A stretch of DNA of 45,968 nt. Origin: a bacterium. GTDB taxonomy: Bacteria > RBG-13-66-14 > B26-G2 > WVWN01. Below are positions 9,579 through 26,200 of this stretch, in pieces. The stretch lies in contig DATKVX010000093.1 in NCBI GenBank assembly GCA_035529855.1, positions 1-45,968 of the forward strand, read 5' to 3'. The stretch's first letter is position 1; each line of letters starts with the position of its first letter. A program made the translations under genes and the position numbers. The notes beneath the pieces are model-generated. The model had not been told where the DNA came from and did no database searches. It saw only the letters and a program-made list of their open reading frames with translations.

Positions 9579-9606
9579 ACCGCGGCTGGGCCGCGGCTTT
9601 TTTTGC
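9579..9606. terminator. Bidirectional terminator between mutL and parA
   Basis: CCGCGGC-TGG-GCCGCGG (9580-9596) is flanked by AAAAAA on the left and TTTTTTT on the right, so it can end transcription of mutL (plus) and of the coiled-coil/parA unit (minus). Confidence 0.9.
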
Positions 9607-9608
9607 GC

Positions 9609-10394
9609 TTAAACGCGGGGCTTTGCCCGGTTTCGCCGTCGCCGAACGATTTCGCCGGCGAGGTGCATATACGCCTGCGCGCCCGCCGACCGGCCGTCGA
9701 AGGTGATGGCCGGTTTTCCGTGTGCCGGCGCTTCGGCCAGCGCGACGCTGCGCGGAATTACGGTTCTGAATACGAGCCTGCCGAAGCGGCGACGAAGGTC
9801 GCTCTCTACTTCGTGCGCGAGTTTCGTCCGCCCGTCGTACATCGTCAACAAAAACCCCTCAATATCGAGGTCGGGGTTGACGCTGAGGCGGACGGTTTTG
9901 ACGAGGCGGATGAATTGCTCGAAGGCGTGGTAGGAATAAAATTCCGCTTGCACCGGGACAAGGACGGAATCCGCCGCGACGAGCGCCGACACCATCAAGT
10001 GCCCCATACTCGGCGGCGAATCCATTATTATATAATCGTATTCGTCCTCGAGTTCTTCCACCGAGCGGGCGAGCATGGTGCGGTTGAGGGAACCCCGCGT
10101 TATCTCGTCTTCGGCGTTGTTCGACCAGATGTTGCTGGGGATGACGTAGAGGTTGGGTATTTCGGTTTCGTGTACGCTGCCGGAGGCGGGGAAGTTCCGC
10201 GTGAATATCTCGTACACGCCGCGGTAGAGCAAATCCTGGTTGAAGTCCAAGGCTACGCTCGCGCAGGCTTGGGGGTCGAGGTCGACGAGGAGCGTCTTCT
10301 TCTCCGCGACGGCCAGGGAAGCGCTCAAGTTCACCGCGGTGGTTGTTTTCCCGACGCCGCCTTTTTGGCTGGCTACGGCGATTTTACGTGCCAT
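9609..10394 (-). CDS. ParA/Soj-family ATPase
   Basis: The 261-residue protein has the deviant Walker A motif SQKGGVGKTTT with the signature Lys, Walker A' LLVDLDPQA, and Walker B IIMDSPPSMG. Its length fits chromosomal Soj or small orphan ParA proteins with no N-terminal DNA-binding extension. A basic C-terminus (RRRRNRAKPR) could help non-specific nucleoid binding. ParA dimers bind the nucleoid in an ATP-dependent way and position cargo. No parB gene follows and I saw no parS-like palindrome nearby. Instead the gene lies 31 bases after a giant coiled-coil gene in the same transcript, which suggests a cargo-positioning role rather than plain chromosome segregation. Confidence 0.92.
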   Translation of the reverse strand: MARKIAVASQKGGVGKTTTAVNLSASLAVAEKKTLLVDLDPQACASVALDFNQDLLYRGVYEIFTRNFPASGSVHETEIPNLYVIPSNIWSNNAEDEITRGSLNRTMLARSVEELEDEYDYIIMDSPPSMGHLMVSALVAADSVLVPVQAEFYSYHAFEQFIRLVKTVRLSVNPDLDIEGFLLTMYDGRTKLAHEVESDLRRRFGRLVFRTVIPRSVALAEAPAHGKPAITFDGRSAGAQAYMHLAGEIVRRRRNRAKPRV

Positions 10395-10425
10395 TACGGT
10401 ATGGGCTCCCGGCTCGCCGGGTGGG

Positions 10426-13400
10426 TTACGCCGGCGGTTTGCTTTCGCTCGCCCGCTTGAGAGCTTCGTTTAAGATGACGTCGGAGCGTGCGAGTTTTCT
10501 CTGTAGGTCGTCGAGGCGGTCGCCGGCCGATTTTAAGTTCGCCATCTTGGCGTCGACGTCCTTCGTGAGGAAGCTCATTTGCGCGAGCTTTTCGGCGACG
10601 GCGTCTACCCGTTTCTCCTCGTTCCGTAGCTGGCCCATCTTCTCTTCGACCGCCGCCGCGGCGCGGTTTATCTGTTCGAACCTGGCCTCGATATTCTTGA
10701 GCTCGGCCCGTTTGCCGCTTATGTCGCGGACGGCCGCGGCAACGTCTTTGCGCGCGTCCGAGAGCTCGCTCATCTGGCCCCGGACCTCGCTTATGGCATC
10801 GGCCTCGCTCTTGAGGTCCGCCATCCCGTCTTTGACCAGGTCGTAATAGGCCTTGAGGTCGCGCACCTCGCGTTCGACCGCCGCCACTTCGTCGCGCCGC
10901 TGGCCCAACAGGCGCAGGCGTTCGTCGAGGTCCTCGGCCAGCATGGTGAGGGCGTTGACCCGTTCGTCGACGGCGACGACGTCCTGGCTCCGCCGCTCGA
11001 CGAGGGTGGCCTTGCGAGCCGTCTCCTGGGAGGCATCCAGGATTTTCTCGAGGATGCGATTGACCTCTTTCTCCGTGTCGGAGGCTCGCGCGGCGTGGGA
11101 GGCGACGCGGCCGTTTACGTCCGTTACCTCGGCCCGGAGGTCCTCTATCTTTTCCACTTCGCCGGCCAGCTCGAGCCGTAACTTGCCCTGGGCGCCCAGG
11201 GCTTTTTCGACCGCGGCGGAGCTCTCCTCGAGAGCGGCGACCTTGTCGACCAGCCGGTCGACCTCTTTCTCGGATTTGAGCGCCGCCCGACGTTTATCCT
11301 CGAGCAGCGAGAGGTCCCGGTTGAGGTCGTCGAGGCGGGAGCTCAACGCGTCGAGCTTAGCGTCTTCGCGGAGCACCGTCATCATACGGCCGTCGATGTC
11401 TTTGAGGAGAGTGTCGATTTTCTCGGTCTTGTCGTGAACGCTGGAAACCAGTTCTTCGCGGAGTCGGATTTCCTCCTGGCGTCGCTCGAGCCGCTCGAGC
11501 ACTTCCTGCGCGGACTTATTCAGGCGGGCGAAATCTTCTTGCGTACGCGCCCGTTCCGTCCGATATTCGCCGAGCTCGCGCGACGCGACTTCGGACAAGC
11601 GCCCCGACTCCTCCAGCGTCTTTTGGATATCCTTTATCTGTTGCGCCGCGACTTCGACCCGGCCGACGCCGGTCGTTATTTCGCGGACTTTGGTTTCGAC
11701 CTCGTCGAGGCGGGAGGCGCGGGCGTCGAAGGCCGCTTCGCGAGCCTTATTCTCGGAGATCTGGTCGGCGACGGCGCGGGACAGCGCGTCCGCCTCGGCC
11801 AGGCGCGTTTCCAGCGCCCCGATTTTTTCGCGCAATTTTTCCACGGAAGGCGATTGCGCTTGGAAGTCGGCCAGGTCCGCTTTGACGGCGCGGAGTACGT
11901 CGGCGCGGTTATCTATGGCGTCCAGCGTAGAGGTGGCCTCGGCGAGCTTACTTTCGGCGAGGCCCAGTTTTCCGACGAGCTCTTCGGCGGTGCGGGATAC
12001 CTTATCGAGGTCGGCCCGGACGTTGCGGAACTCGGCCGATTGGCGTTCGAACGCCGCCACTTCGAGGCCGAAATCTTCCTGGCGACTCTCCACGTCGGCT
12101 AGCTTGTCCCGAATGCCTTGGGCTTCGCGGAACCGGTCGCGCGTCGCGGCCAGCATTTCCTCCAGGTCGGTGATACGCTTTTCGCCGTCGCGCACCATCT
12201 TCTGTTCTTCAGCCAGCTTCTTGAGCCGGACGTCCATCTCCCACAAAAGGACGTCGAGCTTGCCCGATTCTTCGTTGGCTTTGGCGACGAGATCGCGCTG
12301 GTCTTCCAAGACGTCGATCTTGGTGTTGATGTGCTCGATAAGCGAGTTGAGGCGGTCGACGTTATGGGTCGCTTCGGCGTAGCGTTCGCTTTCCAGGCGT
12401 AGGATGCCGAAGTCCTCCTCGATTTTGGCGAGCGATTTCTCGAGCGCTTGGGCCCGCTCGGCCGAGCTTGTGAGTTCCTTTTGGGCCGCTCCGAAGCGAG
12501 CGTCGAAGTCGCCGAGTTTTTCGCTGAAGCTTTCCACTTTTTCGATTACGGCGTCGGCACGTTTTTCGGCGCCGGCGAGCTCGGCGACGCGTTTTTCGTA
12601 ACCGTCGACTTTCTGGTCGATCTTGGTCGTGCGGCCCGCCAGCGCGCCCGCGCGCCGCGAGATGTCGCCCAGGCCGGCGTCGGTATCCTTGAACTCTTTG
12701 CGGATTTTATCCAAAGAGGCTTTCAAGCCGGTTACGTCTTCGCCGTATTTTTGGGCCTCGCCGCGGACGCGATTGAGCTCGCTTTTGGCGGCGTTGCCTT
12801 CCGAGGCCGCTTCTTTCGCCGCTTGAACCGCCGCCTCGACGCGGCTCTTTACGGCGTCTATCTCTTTCGCGGCTTTGGCCGCCTCGCCCAGTTTGCTCTC
12901 CAAGGCGGCGGTTTTCGCGGCGACGTCCTCGGCGCGCTCGCCCAGCTTGTCCGTTTTATTGGATAACGTCGTGATGGTTTTGGCGCGGGTACCGAGTTGG
13001 CTTAACCCGTCATCCAGGCCTTTCAGGCGGCGTCCGATTTCGGTGCTCGACGTTTTGACGCCGTCCTTCAGGTTAGCTAACGCCGTAGCTTGCTGGTCGG
13101 CGGCCTTCTTCGTCTCGGACAACGACGCTTTGATTTCGGCGAGACTTTGTTTATTCGCCTCGTTGACCTTGGCGGTCTTTTCGGCGGAGGCGCCGGCGGC
13201 GCGGAGCTCGGCGCGGAATTCGGTCATTTGGCCGGCGGTTTTTTCGACGTTATCCAGTTTGGCACGGGCCGCGGCGATATCCTTCTCGACCGCTTTTAAC
13301 TTCTTGGCCTGGTCGCCCAGGCCGGCGATTTCGGATTTGACCGATTTCAGCTCGGCGTCGGCGCGGCCTATGCCCTGCAGCGTGGTTTTGACCGATTTAT

Positions 13401-13971
13401 CCAAGTCGGCGGTTTGCGTCGCCAGCGACGATACGCGGTCGGCCGACTCGCGAACGCGAGCCGTTATCTTGTCCTCGGCACCCGCGACTTTTTCGGTTAT
13501 CTTCGCGACCTCCGCGTCCGTTTTTCGCAGTTCGCCCAGTTTGGCCTCGAATTTCGAAACGTCCCCGGCGGCGCGGCTTACGCTTTCGTTTAACGCGCGC
13601 GCTTTTTTATCGAGGGCGAGAAGGTCGGCCTGCTTCTCGGCCAGGGTGTTAAGCTGCTTTTCGATTTCGCCGGTTTTCGCCGCCGCGGCCGCGGCTTTTT
13701 CCGCGGTCGCATCCACTTGTGCCGGGAGGCCTTCCAGCCCCTTGACCGTTTCGGCGAACGACGCGGACGCGGCCTCGAACTCTGTGGCCTTTTTATCGAG
13801 CTCGTCGGCCTTTTTGAGGTCGCGTTCGACTTTGGCCGCCTGCGTCGACAGCTTCTTCTCCTGGTCCGAGGCTTTATCGATGAGCTTCTTGAATTCGGCC
13901 GCCCGTTTATCGAAATACTTGCCGACCAATTCCGGCGTCAACTCTTGCTTCTTGCCAAATAAGGGGGCCAT
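10426..13971 (-). CDS. Giant soluble coiled-coil protein (1181 residues) paired with ParA
   Basis: The start is the ATG at 13971, preceded by GGAGG seven bases upstream; a longer frame opening at 13998 lacks such a site. After a short head (MAPLFGKKQELTPELVGKYF), almost the whole protein is heptad-rich helix made of Ala, Lys, Glu, Asp, Leu and Arg. I see prolines only at residues 3, 13, 83, about 708 and at the extreme C-terminus, no cysteine, one Trp (near 577), and no signal peptide or membrane segment. It should therefore be a long cytoplasmic rod. The N-terminal half is Ala/Lys-rich and the C-terminal half more charged. Several copies of an L-x3-D-hydrophobic-D-x-R-hydrophobic-x2-L motif recur near residues 571, 851, 1004 and 1128. 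I recognise no named family. Co-transcription with parA suggests a scaffold or cargo adaptor. Confidence 0.85.
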   Translation of the reverse strand: MAPLFGKKQELTPELVGKYFDKRAAEFKKLIDKASDQEKKLSTQAAKVERDLKKADELDKKATEFEAASASFAETVKGLEGLPAQVDATAEKAAAAAAKTGEIEKQLNTLAEKQADLLALDKKARALNESVSRAAGDVSKFEAKLGELRKTDAEVAKITEKVAGAEDKITARVRESADRVSSLATQTADLDKSVKTTLQGIGRADAELKSVKSEIAGLGDQAKKLKAVEKDIAAARAKLDNVEKTAGQMTEFRAELRAAGASAEKTAKVNEANKQSLAEIKASLSETKKAADQQATALANLKDGVKTSSTEIGRRLKGLDDGLSQLGTRAKTITTLSNKTDKLGERAEDVAAKTAALESKLGEAAKAAKEIDAVKSRVEAAVQAAKEAASEGNAAKSELNRVRGEAQKYGEDVTGLKASLDKIRKEFKDTDAGLGDISRRAGALAGRTTKIDQKVDGYEKRVAELAGAEKRADAVIEKVESFSEKLGDFDARFGAAQKELTSSAERAQALEKSLAKIEEDFGILRLESERYAEATHNVDRLNSLIEHINTKIDVLEDQRDLVAKANEESGKLDVLLWEMDVRLKKLAEEQKMVRDGEKRITDLEEMLAATRDRFREAQGIRDKLADVESRQEDFGLEVAAFERQSAEFRNVRADLDKVSRTAEELVGKLGLAESKLAEATSTLDAIDNRADVLRAVKADLADFQAQSPSVEKLREKIGALETRLAEADALSRAVADQISENKAREAAFDARASRLDEVETKVREITTGVGRVEVAAQQIKDIQKTLEESGRLSEVASRELGEYRTERARTQEDFARLNKSAQEVLERLERRQEEIRLREELVSSVHDKTEKIDTLLKDIDGRMMTVLREDAKLDALSSRLDDLNRDLSLLEDKRRAALKSEKEVDRLVDKVAALEESSAAVEKALGAQGKLRLELAGEVEKIEDLRAEVTDVNGRVASHAARASDTEKEVNRILEKILDASQETARKATLVERRSQDVVAVDERVNALTMLAEDLDERLRLLGQRRDEVAAVEREVRDLKAYYDLVKDGMADLKSEADAISEVRGQMSELSDARKDVAAAVRDISGKRAELKNIEARFEQINRAAAAVEEKMGQLRNEEKRVDAVAEKLAQMSFLTKDVDAKMANLKSAGDRLDDLQRKLARSDVILNEALKRASESKPPA

Positions 13972-14079
13972 AATAGGACCTCCCGGCGGGCGCGACACAA
14001 CGCTTGACCGCCTACGCGCCGGCCAGACGTACGGAAGTTGAGTTTATATTATGATTAATACAAGTCCCTTGGAATTCAG

Positions 14080-14108
14080 AATATAGAATAATTACCTGGT
14101 AGCGTCAA
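14080..14108 (-). promoter_or_regulatory. Near-consensus sigma70-type promoter for the coiled-coil/parA operon
   Basis: Read on the minus strand, TTGACG (14103-14108) and TATATT (14080-14085) are exactly 17 bases apart in an AT-rich stretch. Transcription would start near 14073, giving a leader of about 100 bases before the ATG at 13971. Confidence 0.65.
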
Positions 14109-15942: not shown

Positions 15943-16509
15943 ATGAGGATACTCTTACACGCCTGTTGCGGGCCTTGTTTGGTGGCGCCGGCGCGCGCGC
16001 TTGCGGCGGAAGGGCGCGAGATACTGGCCTTTTGGTACAACCCGAACGTCCAGCCGTACCGCGAGTACCGCAAAAGGCTCGCCGCGTTCAAGGAAGTAAT
16101 AAGCCGCGACGGCTGGCCCGCCGAGGTGGACGACCGCTACGACGTCGATTTTTTCCTGAGGGAGGTCGCCGTTCGCCGGGAGGGCCGGTGCCCGCGTTGC
16201 TACAACGAGCGGCTTTCGCGAGCCGCGGCGCGGGCGGCGGCGCGCGGCTGCGACGCCTTTACGACGACGCTGCTGATATCGCGCCACCAGGACCACGAGG
16301 CCGTGCTGGACGCGGGGGCCCGGGCGGGGGCGGAGGCCGGCGTCGCGTTTATGGGGCGAGATTTCAGACCTTTGGACGACGAGAGCCACCGACTCGCCCG
16401 CGAGATGGGGCTCTACCTCCAGGGTTATTGCGGCTGTATATACAGCGAGGAGGAACGTTACCGCAAGCCGGAGGACGTTGACTCGAGCGAAGTTCGATTT
16501 GGCGGTTAA
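15943..16509 (+). CDS. queH: Epoxyqueuosine reductase QueH
   Basis: The 188-residue protein begins MRILLHACCGPC and has CPRCYNERL and a GYCGCIYSEEERY segment near the C-terminus. These paired-Cys motifs define the QueH (former DUF208) family, which reduces epoxyqueuosine in tRNA to queuosine, the last step of the pathway, using Fe-S chemistry unrelated to QueG. The start at 15943 is chosen because the promoter's -10 box overlaps the alternative ATG at 15919. No other queuosine gene is in the window. Its last 32 bases overlap the next gene, so the operon is translationally coupled. Confidence 0.92.
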   Translation: MRILLHACCGPCLVAPARALAAEGREILAFWYNPNVQPYREYRKRLAAFKEVISRDGWPAEVDDRYDVDFFLREVAVRREGRCPRCYNERLSRAAARAAARGCDAFTTTLLISRHQDHEAVLDAGARAGAEAGVAFMGRDFRPLDDESHRLAREMGLYLQGYCGCIYSEEERYRKPEDVDSSEVRFGG

Positions 16510-17080
16510 GGCCGCGCTGGTGTGGAAGCACCTGAGGATGCCGGCGCGGGAGGCGGCGCCCGAGCTCCGCGGCGATTTCGACGACGCTTACCGCCGGGCC
16601 CGCGCCGTGCTCGAGCCCAGGTATTCGTACGCTCGCGCGGCCGCCGTCGCGGCCCGCGGCCGGACGCTGGAATTGGAGGGCGGCGTAGTCTTCGAGAGCG
16701 GGGACCTCGTTAAGTTGGCGGCCGGCGCTTCCGCCGTCGTCGCGATAGCGGCGACGGTGGGGGACGGCGTCGACGAGTTGGCCCGCGAGTACGACGGCCG
16801 GGGCGACACGTTCGCGATGACGGTGGCCGACGCCGTCGGCTCGGTAGCGGCGGAGGAGCTTATCTCGCTGGTCCACGGCTCGATTAAAGACGAAGCGGCT
16901 CGAGCCGGCGAAGCGGTAACGCGGCGCATAAGCCCCGGCTACGGCGACTTCGAGCTCGCGGCCCAGGAGCGCCTGCTCCGGCTGGCCGGCGGCTTCGAGC
17001 TGGGAATAAGTTTGACCGAGAACTATATGATGATTCCGCGCAAGAGCGTGACCGCGGTTGCGGCGGTTGTGGCGAAATGA
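16478..17080 (+). CDS. Stand-alone methionine synthase reactivation domain protein
   Basis: The 200-residue protein starts at TTG with GGAGG three bases upstream. The C-terminal half has RISPGYGDFELAAQERLL and ISLTENYMMIPRKSVTAV, which match the SAM-binding 'R.aPGYg' and 'lt...am.P..SvsG' elements of the MetH activation domain. This short free-standing form is known in bacteria whose MetH lacks its C-terminal domain. It should bind SAM and help methylate oxidised cob(II)alamin on MetH, with reductant from an unidentified flavodoxin or ferredoxin. Its stop overlaps the metH start (ATGA). The truncated MetH next to it strongly supports the assignment. Confidence 0.85.
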   Translation: MTRAKFDLAVKAALVWKHLRMPAREAAPELRGDFDDAYRRARAVLEPRYSYARAAAVAARGRTLELEGGVVFESGDLVKLAAGASAVVAIAATVGDGVDELAREYDGRGDTFAMTVADAVGSVAAEELISLVHGSIKDEAARAGEAVTRRISPGYGDFELAAQERLLRLAGGFELGISLTENYMMIPRKSVTAVAAVVAK

Positions 17081-19467
17081 AACTTCGGCGCGAACAATTC
17101 AAAGCGTTGGCCCGGAAGCGCGTTTTACTGCTGGACGGCGCGATGGGCACGCTGCTCCAGGATAAGGGCCTGCCGGCCGGCGAGCCGCCGGATGGGTTCA
17201 ACCTATACAACCCCGACGCGGTGCGCGCGGCGCATGCGGCCTACGTCGCCGCCGGCGCCGACATCATTTTGACCAATACTTTCGGCGCGACGAAGCGGCG
17301 GCTCGCGCCTTTTCGCCTCGCCTCCCGCGCCGACGAAATAAACCGCGCGGGGGTCGCGCTGGCGCGGGAAGCCGCGGGCGATAAGGTCCGGGTGGCAGGC
17401 GACGTCGGCCCGCTGGGCGAATATCCGGAGCCGTTGGGCGCGCTCTCGTTCGACGAGGCGTACCGCGAATTCTACCGTCAGGCGCGAGTGCTGGCCGACG
17501 CCGGCGTCGACCTCGTCGTCGTCGAGACGATGTCGGACCTGCGTGAGGCCAAGGCCGCGGTAGTGGCGGCGCGCGCGGCGTTCGACGGTCCTATAATCGC
17601 CTTTATGACGTTCGACGAGGACGGCCGCGCCGTTACCGGTACGCCGCCCGAGGTCGCCGCCGTTACGCTCGTCGCCGCGGGCGCGGACGCGGTGGGGGCC
17701 AATTGCTCGGTGGGGGCGCGCGAGCTCGTGCCGGTTATCCGGGCGATGGCGGCCGCGGTGGACGTTCCGGTGTGCGCCGAGCCGAACGCCGGCCTGCCCC
17801 GGCTCGTGGCGGGCAAGACGGCGTTCCGGCAGACGCCGGCCCAATTCGCGTCGTGGGTGCCGAAGCTCGTCGCCGCCGGCGCCGCGGTGGTGGGCGGTTG
17901 CTGCGGCACGACCCCGGAGCACGTACGGTTGGCGGCGAAGGCGGCCGAGGGTCTGACGCCGCCGAGGCGCAGCCGGGGAGAGCGCAGGTCCACGCTCGCC
18001 GCCCGGGCGCGGCTGGTCGTCGTAGGCGGCGGCGCGCCCGTCGTCGTGGGCGAACGGATTAATCCGACGGGCCGGCGCGAGCTTACGCGGGAGTTCGCGA
18101 GGAACCGATTTGACTTGGCGGCCCGCGAGGCCGAGGCGCAGGTGGCGGCGGGCGCGGCCGTCGTGGACGTGAACGTCGGCGACGGGGAAGGCGCCGCGGG
18201 AACGATGGCGGCGGCGGTGCGCGCGGTCCAGGATGCCGTGGACGTGCCGGCGTCGGTCGACTCCGCGCGGCCGGAGGTGCTGGAGGCCGGTTTAAAGGCC
18301 GCGGTGGGGAAGCCGTTGTTGAACTCTTGCCCGGCGTCGGCGCGCGCTATGGCCAGGCTGCTGCCGATGGCGCGTCGCTGGGGTGCGGCCGTGGTGGGCC
18401 TGGCGATGGGCGCCCGCGGCATCCCGGCGACCGCGGCCTCGCGGCTGAAGTTGGCCGAGAAGTTCGTGGGTCGGGCGCTGGACGAGGGCATCGCGCTCGA
18501 CGACATATACGTCGACCCGTTGATGCTTACGGCGGCGCGGGGCGGCGCGGCCCAAACCTTCGAGACCCTGCGCGAGATAAAAGAGAACCTGGGCGTACGT
18601 ACGGTTATGGGCGTGAGCAACGTGTCGCACGGCCTGCCGGAGCGAGACGTTTTGAACGCCGCGGCGTTCCTCTATGCCGCGGGCGCGGGCCTCGACCTCG
18701 CCATCGTAAATCCCCTCGACGAGCGGATGCGGCAAGCTATGCGTACCGCGTCGGCTTTGGCGGGCGGCGAACGGGAAGTGGCCTCGTACGTCGAGGCGTT
18801 TTCGAGAAAAGCTCCGCGGAAAAAAGAGAGGAAGAGGAAGGCAACGCCGGGCGGCGAGCTGTACGAGGCGGTTCTCGGCGGCCGGCGCGAACGCGCCAAG
18901 GCCGCGGCCGCTCGAGCCCTAAAAAATTCCCCCAAGCCGTTGGTTATAAATGATAAATTTATCGCTCCGGCGTTGAAGGAAGTGGGCCGCCTTTTCGAGC
19001 GGAAGGAGTATTACCTGCCGCAGGTGATTCGGGCGGCCGAGGCGGCGCAAGCGGCGTTTGGCGTCGTCGAGAAAGCGATCGATAAAAAATCGCGCCGGCC
19101 CGCGGGCCGGGTCGTCTTCGCTACCGTAGCGGGCGACGTACACGACATAGGCAAGAACGTCGTCGCCGCGGTGTTGCGGAGTCACGGGTTCGACGTATAC
19201 GATTTGGGGAAGAACGTTTCCACGCCGCGCGTGGTCGAAAGCGCGGCGGCGCGGCGGGCGGACGTCGTGGCGCTGTCGGCGTTGATGACGACGACGATGC
19301 CCGAGATGGGTAAAGTCGCGGAGGCGCTGCGGGCGCGAGGCGTCAAGGCGCGCTTGTTGGTGGGCGGCGCCGTCGTTACGAAGAAGTACGCCGACGAGAT
19401 CGGCGCCGCGTACGCGCGGGACGCCGTCGCCGCGGCGCGCGTCGCAAAACGTCTGGTTCGACCGTAA
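17077..19467 (+). CDS. metH: Cobalamin-dependent methionine synthase lacking the activation domain
   Basis: The 796-residue protein transfers a methyl group from methyltetrahydrofolate through cobalamin to homocysteine. The homocysteine-binding barrel (1-300) starts LLLDGAMGTLLQ and has zinc ligands Cys210 (GANCSVG) and Cys275/Cys276 (GGCCGT). The pterin-binding barrel (about 320-570) starts VVVGERINPTGRR. The cap and cobalamin domains (about 600-796) contain DVHDIGKN with the cobalt-ligating His689. E. coli MetH is about 1227 residues; the missing C-terminal activation domain is supplied by the upstream overlapping gene. A basic KAPRKKERKRK linker separates the pterin and cap domains. Confidence 0.95.
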   Translation: MKLRREQFKALARKRVLLLDGAMGTLLQDKGLPAGEPPDGFNLYNPDAVRAAHAAYVAAGADIILTNTFGATKRRLAPFRLASRADEINRAGVALAREAAGDKVRVAGDVGPLGEYPEPLGALSFDEAYREFYRQARVLADAGVDLVVVETMSDLREAKAAVVAARAAFDGPIIAFMTFDEDGRAVTGTPPEVAAVTLVAAGADAVGANCSVGARELVPVIRAMAAAVDVPVCAEPNAGLPRLVAGKTAFRQTPAQFASWVPKLVAAGAAVVGGCCGTTPEHVRLAAKAAEGLTPPRRSRGERRSTLAARARLVVVGGGAPVVVGERINPTGRRELTREFARNRFDLAAREAEAQVAAGAAVVDVNVGDGEGAAGTMAAAVRAVQDAVDVPASVDSARPEVLEAGLKAAVGKPLLNSCPASARAMARLLPMARRWGAAVVGLAMGARGIPATAASRLKLAEKFVGRALDEGIALDDIYVDPLMLTAARGGAAQTFETLREIKENLGVRTVMGVSNVSHGLPERDVLNAAAFLYAAGAGLDLAIVNPLDERMRQAMRTASALAGGEREVASYVEAFSRKAPRKKERKRKATPGGELYEAVLGGRRERAKAAAARALKNSPKPLVINDKFIAPALKEVGRLFERKEYYLPQVIRAAEAAQAAFGVVEKAIDKKSRRPAGRVVFATVAGDVHDIGKNVVAAVLRSHGFDVYDLGKNVSTPRVVESAAARRADVVALSALMTTTMPEMGKVAEALRARGVKARLLVGGAVVTKKYADEIGAAYARDAVAAARVAKRLVRP

Positions 19468-25312: not shown

Positions 25313-26200
25313 ATGCCTAACGACGACGGACCGGAAAAAGAACCCTCGGCTGAGGAAGCGGCGAAGCTCGAGCGCTTCAAGCAACGCCTCGAGCTCGAAA
25401 AGCGCATCGCCGAGCGGATGAAGCTCATCCGCCACAAGATCTTGGTGGCGTCCGGCAAGGGGGGCGTCGGCAAGACGACGGTGGCCGTAAACTTAGCGCT
25501 CGCGTTGGCCCAAGCGGGGGACGGCGTGGCGCTGCTGGACGCGGATATACACGGCCCGGGCGTGCCGCTGATGCTCGGCCTGGCGGACGTTAAACCCACC
25601 GGCGGCGATGCCGGCATAAACCCGGTGGCGTACGATGACAAGCTGGTCGTGATGAGTATGGCCTTCCTCGTCGCGGGCGAGTCCGACGCCGTCATATGGC
25701 GCGGGCCGCTCAAGATGGCGATGATAGACAACTTCCTGGCCGACATTAACTGGGGCGAACGCGACTGGCTCGTGGTGGACACGCCGCCCGGAACCGGCGA
25801 CGAGATATTATCGCTGGCGCAGCGTATAAAGGACGCCGACGGCCTGATAATGGTGACGACGCCCCAGGCGGCCGCGGTGGCGTCGGCCCGCAAGAGCCTG
25901 ACGTTTGCCGTAAAAACGAAAATACCGGTTTTAGGGGTAATCGAGAATATGGGCCCGTTCGCCTGTCCGGAGTGCGGGCACGATATAAAATTGTTCGGCG
26001 GCGGCGGCGGCGAACGCGTTGCGGCCGAGTTCGGCGTCCGTTTCCTGGGGGCCGTTCCCTTCGACCCCGACGTGGTCCCGGAATCGGACCGCGGCCAACC
26101 CGTTATGGTGGCCCGGCCCGATAGCGCGACCGCGCGGGCCTGGAGGAAGATAACGGCGAAGGTTCGGGAAGTGGTCGCGGCGTCGGCTAAGGAAAAGTAG
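25313..26200 (+). CDS. mrp: Mrp/ApbC-type Fe-S cluster carrier ATPase
   Basis: The 295-residue P-loop protein has ASGKGGVGKTTVAVNLA (deviant Walker A), LLDADIHGPGVPLMLGL, the switch and Walker B elements WRGPLK and LVVDTPPGTGDE, and the Cys218-x2-Cys221 pair (FACPECG) that binds a bridging [4Fe-4S] cluster in the Mrp/NBP35 family. An acidic, charged N-terminal extension of about 40 residues replaces the usual DUF59 domain. It should carry Fe-S clusters to apoproteins in the cytoplasm. It is third in the mtnP operon. Confidence 0.95.
   Translation: MPNDDGPEKEPSAEEAAKLERFKQRLELEKRIAERMKLIRHKILVASGKGGVGKTTVAVNLALALAQAGDGVALLDADIHGPGVPLMLGLADVKPTGGDAGINPVAYDDKLVVMSMAFLVAGESDAVIWRGPLKMAMIDNFLADINWGERDWLVVDTPPGTGDEILSLAQRIKDADGLIMVTTPQAAAVASARKSLTFAVKTKIPVLGVIENMGPFACPECGHDIKLFGGGGGERVAAEFGVRFLGAVPFDPDVVPESDRGQPVMVARPDSATARAWRKITAKVREVVAASAKEK

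Follow-up and report, generated by a model that had tools for sequence, protein, structure and literature searches.

A long coiled-coil protein (the rod) and an orphan ParA ATPase are encoded in an operon-like arrangement in a relative of Candidatus Coatesbacteria, and the two genes are co-inherited in its class. On balance, we consider it somewhat probable that they form a positioning module that is restricted to a single class of Candidatus Coatesbacteria. Among the known systems of spatial organisation in bacteria, those based on ParA-type ATPases are the main ones, and additional ParA-type ATPases with no known cargo are encoded in many genomes. The source genome (2.62 Mb, 97% complete) has Candidatus Coatesbacteria bin3 (CP070755.1) as its nearest named relative. 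In the window, i.e., the whole stretch of 45,968 nucleotides that was analysed, we assigned the following features to the locus, with the evidence given in brackets.

9580-9598, both strands: putative bidirectional terminator of parA and the convergent mutL, with the hairpin CCGCGGC-nnn-GCCGCGG at 9580-9596 (sequence)
9609-10394, minus strand: orphan ParA ATPase gene, 261 amino acids (ORF, Pfam, AlphaFold, structure comparison, tree)
10119-10133, minus strand: ParA residues 88-92, NIWSN, at the partner-pocket segment (alignment; pocket residues from PMC12462528)
10426-13971, minus strand: coiled-coil rod gene, 1181 residues from the ATG (ORF; hydrophobic periodicity; homologues in 7/7 class genomes)
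12046-12408, minus strand: Trp module around W577, QRDLVAKANEESGKLDVLLWEMD, which defines the wider rod family (alignment A6)
13948-13959, minus strand: rod codons 5-8, FGKK, basic N-terminal motif and candidate ParA contact (comparison of rods)
13979-13984, minus strand: ribosome-binding site GGGAGG of the rod gene (sequence; kept in four congeners)
14080-14108, minus strand: promoter TTGACG-17-TATATT (10/12 consensus; kept in four congeneric species)

Locus organization

The preliminary description of this locus had reported a promoter with a strong ribosome-binding site, a long coiled-coil gene followed 31 bases later by parA, and a shared terminator, and each of these was recovered. The ORF coordinates place the rod gene ahead of parA with a gap of 31 bases, and the hydrophobic periodicity described below bears out the coiled coil. 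An alternative GTG start, 27 bases further upstream of the ATG, would give a rod of 1190 amino acids. A hairpin in the 31-base gap was considered as a translational coupler and rejected, as it is not conserved in the closest species.

Taken alone, the promoter score is weak and near chance expectation, with one site found and 0.7 sites this good expected by chance in the region. The 10/12 promoter with its 17-base spacing lies at -135 to -137 from the rod start codon in 4/4 species of the genus, and GGGAGG is kept alongside it in the four congeners while the flanks diverge. Downstream of parA, the hairpin has T-runs on both sides in the sequence, and the terminator prediction lists the plus-strand side only. 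It can plausibly terminate both parA and the convergent mutL, and two congeners have hairpins at the same place.

Two other observations were made in the window. On the plus strand, MetH is apparently split (16478-19467), with a 796-residue MetH (17077-19467) preceded by a short ORF (16478-17080) that encodes a portion of the B12-dependent activation domain. A second P-loop ATPase (25313-26200, plus strand) is an Mrp/NUBPL-type iron-sulfur carrier and not a ParA (Pfam PF10609, 2.5e-89).

The window ParA is an orphan with an altered partner pocket

The ATPase had been called a canonical ParA, and we agree. It matches Pfam AAA_31 (5e-52), carries the deviant Walker A motif KGGVGKTTT with the signature lysine, and is modelled by AlphaFold as a confident ParA fold (pLDDT 88). 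The closest solved folds are of the Soj/ParA type (TM ~0.9, ~43% identity), whereas McdA and MinD are further off and the identity to McdA is only 20-21%. By its Walker A motif and its fold, it is thus a Soj-type ParA.

The reported absence of ParB and parS nearby was likewise confirmed. No parB lies next to the window parA, the only ParB_N match of the genome being on contig C118, and the search for parS with up to three mismatches gave no match in the 46-kb window. On C118, a ParB is encoded beside the second ParA of the genome, and within ~800 bases of that parA there are two parS-like sites, one reading CGTTTCACGTGAAACG and the other differing from it by one base. Because a complete ParABS with two parS sites is present there, the window ParA is a true orphan, and its operon has neither the adjacent parB nor the nearby parS of a ParABS locus.

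We placed the window ParA in a tree of 54 ParAs, including six rod-linked and 33 ParB-adjacent ones. The rod-linked ParAs form one clade (support 98/97), which stands apart from the 33 ParB-adjacent ParAs and is nested in a ParB-less group with ParAs of KSB1/Calditrichota (98/84; the bootstrap is not fully settled).

Partner pocket: The residues of M. xanthus ParA that hold the activating arginine of ParB are Y81, E82, D110, and E117 (PMC12462528). We mapped these residues onto the window ParA through the alignment to 8RAY. Y61, E62, and E97 are the kept equivalents of Y81, E82, and E117, and W90 is found at the position of D110. All seven rod-linked ParAs have Trp at this position, and no ParA of the ParB-adjacent set does. 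The segment around it reads N[IV]WSN in the same seven, in place of the DLxGAE that is usual in ParAs served by a ParB. A related N[VL]WSD is present in three KSB1-type sister ParAs and in genome G203, and neither version was found in any ParB-adjacent ParA examined. The altered segment suggests a different partner and an insulation from ParB. That the window ParA serves the chromosomal ParB-parS or a plasmid would suit its canonical sequence. We find this hardly credible, given the dedicated parA-parB with its parS sites on C118, the position of the window ParA outside the ParB-adjacent ParAs, and the different pocket segment.

DNA-binding positions: The Arg at the IPR position, the counterpart of K227 in HpParA, which binds DNA, does not vary among the complete proteins, and this speaks for the positioning reading. 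Among the four DNA-binding lysines of HpParA, only this equivalent is conserved throughout, and the positions of K199 and K230 are not basic in the window ParA, which counts against the positioning reading. Where MinD has a C-terminal membrane-targeting helix, the window ParA ends in a basic tail (RRRRNRAKPRV), the last residues of which are of low confidence in the AlphaFold model. The parA of G002 (L038, 10827-11609) is broken near the 3' end by a run of unknown bases, and its C-terminus is outside the comparison.

KSB1/Calditrichota sisters: These orphan ParAs are sisters of the rod-linked ones in the tree, and 3/4 of the KSB1-type share the N[VL]WS segment. Their operons have no coiled-coil rod and carry sensory or cell-wall genes instead; response regulators, DUF4388, transglycosylase, and CheW-like or chemoreceptor genes adjoin the ParA. 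In the KSB1-type loci L057, L058, L061, L067, and L225, the operon of the ParB-less ParA also encodes response regulators, a protein with a transglycosylase domain, and a protein of 700-970 amino acids without a Pfam match, and these operons are a candidate for another orphan ParA system. In the Calditrichota-type loci L060, L064, L075, and L226, the ParB-less ParA is followed by a response regulator, CheW-like, and MCP-like genes, which is a PpfA/ParC-like chemosensory setting.

Conservation of the rod-ParA pair

The pair is present in 7/7 genomes of the class, from four families, with the same gene order and a rod-to-ParA distance of 31-68 bases. Within the genus, the neighbouring genes are conserved; from one family to another, hardly anything but the pair persists, and a LeuD-like gene and a methyltransferase recur loosely around it in the other families. 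The pair is absent from all seven sister-class genomes examined. The comparison with named genomes covered 80 loci that encode the closest ParAs, and a long coiled coil adjoins only the Coatesbacteria one.

Co-transcription without a common function has to be weighed here, i.e., an operon that an orphan ParA shares by chance with a rod gene of older origin. It agrees with the occurrence of the rod family elsewhere without a linked ParA and with the quite different genes that adjoin the KSB1/Calditrichota relatives of the window ParA. However, the pair persists in four families amid neighbours that are mostly replaced, the change in the rod N-terminus coincides exactly with the linkage to ParA, and the ParA pocket is altered in the same clade. 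We give this explanation little credit.

The rod belongs to a wider family

We found no confident globular domain in the rod. Its hydrophobicity has a period of 3.46 residues (a heptad would give 3.5), which is coherent along the whole length and has a power of 13 versus 1.4 for the 99th percentile of shuffles. For charge, four of the five proteins had no periodicity peak above the shuffle limit, and only that of G006 exceeded it. The AlphaFold model of the full rod is of low confidence (mean pLDDT 51), with helices only and no usable shape, and this counts against the positioning reading as well. If the rod were a single uninterrupted parallel coiled coil, a rise of 0.148 nm per residue would make it a straight particle ~140-175 nm long. 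Unrelated long coiled coils in the fetched loci have periods of 3.36-3.64, mostly with weaker coherence; one further protein with a 3.45 period, in G113, is without a clear Trp module. The Pfam matches of the rod, NPV_P10 and BLOC1_2, are generic coiled-coil matches that are also found in other coiled coils, and we rejected them as an identity for the rod.

A chromosome organiser, in which an SMC-like but headless rod tethers or compacts DNA and ParA is the nucleoid anchor, would suit the Soj-type fold of ParA and the weak matches between the rod and the coiled coils of SMC/Rad50. We regard this as quite improbable: the matches are far below the cut-offs and common to unrelated coiled coils, no head or hinge domain was found in the rod, and the genome already has a ParABS.

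The preliminary description had recognised no named family for the rod, which is right only in part. With NCBIfam SpiroCoCo_C (the SpiroCoCo models are NF047514/NF047515), the rod reaches 158.9 bits as a sum of partial stretches, above the cut-off of 125, and a sister-class rod scores 140.1 bits. With SpiroCoCo_N, it scores 59.8 bits, below the cut-off of 75, and the stretch is at residues 1066-1170 and not at the N-terminus. We rejected a SpiroCoCo membership on anatomy and period. The L178 protein, which matches both models end to end, starts with a hydrophobic segment, ends in a distinct C-terminal region, follows a 3.64 period for most of its length, and has no adjoining ParA. The C-terminal 240 residues of L178 have a 3.45 period as in the rod, and a distant link of this part to the rod is possible.

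The Trp module around W577 is conserved far outside the class and identifies rods in the sister class and outside the phylum. Using alignment A6 and a cut-off of 1e-7, we found matches in 23 of 386 sampled genomes, i.e., 12 Coatesbacteria, nine strong others (E <1e-35; five of these nine are rows of the search alignment), and two weak ones. There is one main copy of the Trp-module rod per genome. From the Trp to the C-terminus, the rods measure 597-617 residues in all members measured but G006 (537), the N-terminal part before the Trp varies from ~145 to 576 residues, and the period is 3.455-3.464 throughout the family. The window rod has the Trp module and 604 residues from the Trp to the C-terminus and is a member. 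A fixed length together with a sub-heptad period over at least 600 residues is unusual.

The preliminary description had asked whether homologues of the rod are always neighbours of an orphan ParA and had counted homologues without ParA as a refutation; such homologues were found in the sister class and outside the phylum. In the fetched stretches of 9 to 20 kb, no ParA adjoins any of the 15 unpaired rods, and the only P-loop ORF of the ParA kind near them is ~3.5 kb away (G166). As most of the family is without a linked ParA, this is a further point against the positioning reading. The family is apparently undescribed, fixed in length, and present in other lineages without ParA, and it seems that a ParA motor was added to an older rod in one lineage. 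Tentatively, the rod may be a member of an undescribed cytoskeletal or ruler-like family, and one class could have turned it into what a dedicated ParA motor carries or is built around, by means of an added N-terminal activator peptide.

Outside Coatesbacteria, the rods of L233-L237 and L252-L255 (750-896 amino acids) are single-copy, have a 3.456 period, and are without ParA. The gene next to the unpaired rod resembles an NAD(P)H-hydrate epimerase in L234, L252, and L255. In the sister-class loci L171, L172, and L175, the gene before the unpaired rod has an HD_5 (HD-GYP type) domain, based on a Pfam match in L171 and look-alike ORFs in L172 and L175.

The N-terminus of the paired rods

G6, K7, and K8 are invariant in the seven paired rods. 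An [FI]GKK N-terminus is found in 7/7 paired rods versus 0/15 unpaired rods. The paired rods share ancestry, and the seven occurrences are not seven independent events. The GKK motif is short, and three unpaired rods of the sister class begin with MGKK, which weighs against the positioning reading. Residues 1-12 of the rod are non-helical in the low-confidence model.

A short basic N-terminus is the common ATPase-activating element of ParB, MinE, and PomX, and short basic N-termini are also seen in TlpT and McdB (PMC7993993). As [FI]GKK is restricted to paired rods and basic N-termini are known activators, we propose that this end of the rod may switch ParA. The rod had been put forward as an adaptor or scaffold. 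At the sequence level, its co-inheritance with ParA in 7/7 genomes, the altered pocket, and [FI]GKK fit a role as an adaptor or ATPase-activating partner; what falls away is the rod as a protein dedicated to ParA.

Comparison with known systems

PomX/PomZ: The system that positions the division site in M. xanthus likewise consists of a ParA-type ATPase and a coiled-coil partner. PomX activates PomZ through a basic N-terminus of 22 residues and is a protein of 404 amino acids, the N-terminal half of which is rich in Ala and Pro and the coiled coil of which is short and C-terminal (PMC7993993). In contrast, the paired rods have 950-1181 residues and the 3.46 period, PomX being compared here by its published architecture only. 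We identified no PomY-like gene here.

McdA/McdB: In this and other orphan ParA/MinD systems, an orphan ATPase gene is likewise found beside a presumed adaptor gene, and more than one third of genomes have several ATPases of the ParA/MinD type (PMC10241942).

Scy: This very long coiled coil of Streptomyces interacts with ParA (PMC3718342). Following the Scy/ParA example, the window pair could serve cytoskeletal regulation and not transport, with the rod forming a scaffold that resembles a filament and stays at one site, and with ParA and rod controlling the assembly of each other. The very long coiled coil with no other domain and the scaffold-like ~605 residues from the Trp to the C-terminus in all but one measured member speak for this. 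However, Scy works with the chromosomal ParA and not with a dedicated one, and makes contact along a non-canonical coiled coil, whereas here an orphan ParA is in the rod operon and the correlation with the N-terminal GKK points to an activator peptide and not to contact along the rod. We consider cytoskeletal regulation unlikely.

Candidate cargo

CheW is absent from G004, G005, and G006, three class members that have the pair, and chemosensory arrays were rejected as a general cargo. Microcompartments were rejected as well: shell genes are missing from the pair-bearing G004 (89% complete genome) and present in sister-class genomes, which are without the pair. Unlike McdAB, the pair does not co-occur with microcompartments. 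That neither chemotaxis nor microcompartment genes track the pair counts against the positioning reading. Chemoreceptor arrays and microcompartments could be local cargo in some genomes; neither of them fits as a universal cargo. Microcompartment shell genes are otherwise widespread in the phylum, and on contig C7 of G000 (L223), shell genes and an aldehyde dehydrogenase gene make up a bacterial microcompartment locus.

Proposed mechanism

We slightly favour a mechanism in which the basic N-terminus of the rod lets ParA place the rod, together with its load, along the nucleoid. ATP-bound ParA would dimerise and sit non-specifically on the nucleoid. The rod would self-associate as a long coiled coil and display a disordered basic N-terminal peptide, LFGKK. 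This peptide would bind the ParA dimer near the conserved Tyr-Glu...Glu pocket, as remodelled by NIWSN, and would trigger ATP hydrolysis and the release of ParA. Repeated binding and release would then move or space the rod assembly, with whatever it carries, over the nucleoid. The sequences themselves show the operon-like gene order, the co-inheritance, the orphan status of ParA, the family relations, and the sequence signatures; that the two proteins touch, that the ATPase is activated, that the nucleoid is bound, and that the assembly moves is what we infer. As for the origin, an older single-copy rod family without ParA would have acquired, in this class, an N-terminal extension and an orphan ParA.

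The adaptor candidate of this orphan ParA is clear, and the rod family is a natural experiment, as its members occur with and without ParA and differ at the N-terminus. The idea that grafting a basic peptide creates a ParA partner (PMC7993993) is made directly testable by this family.
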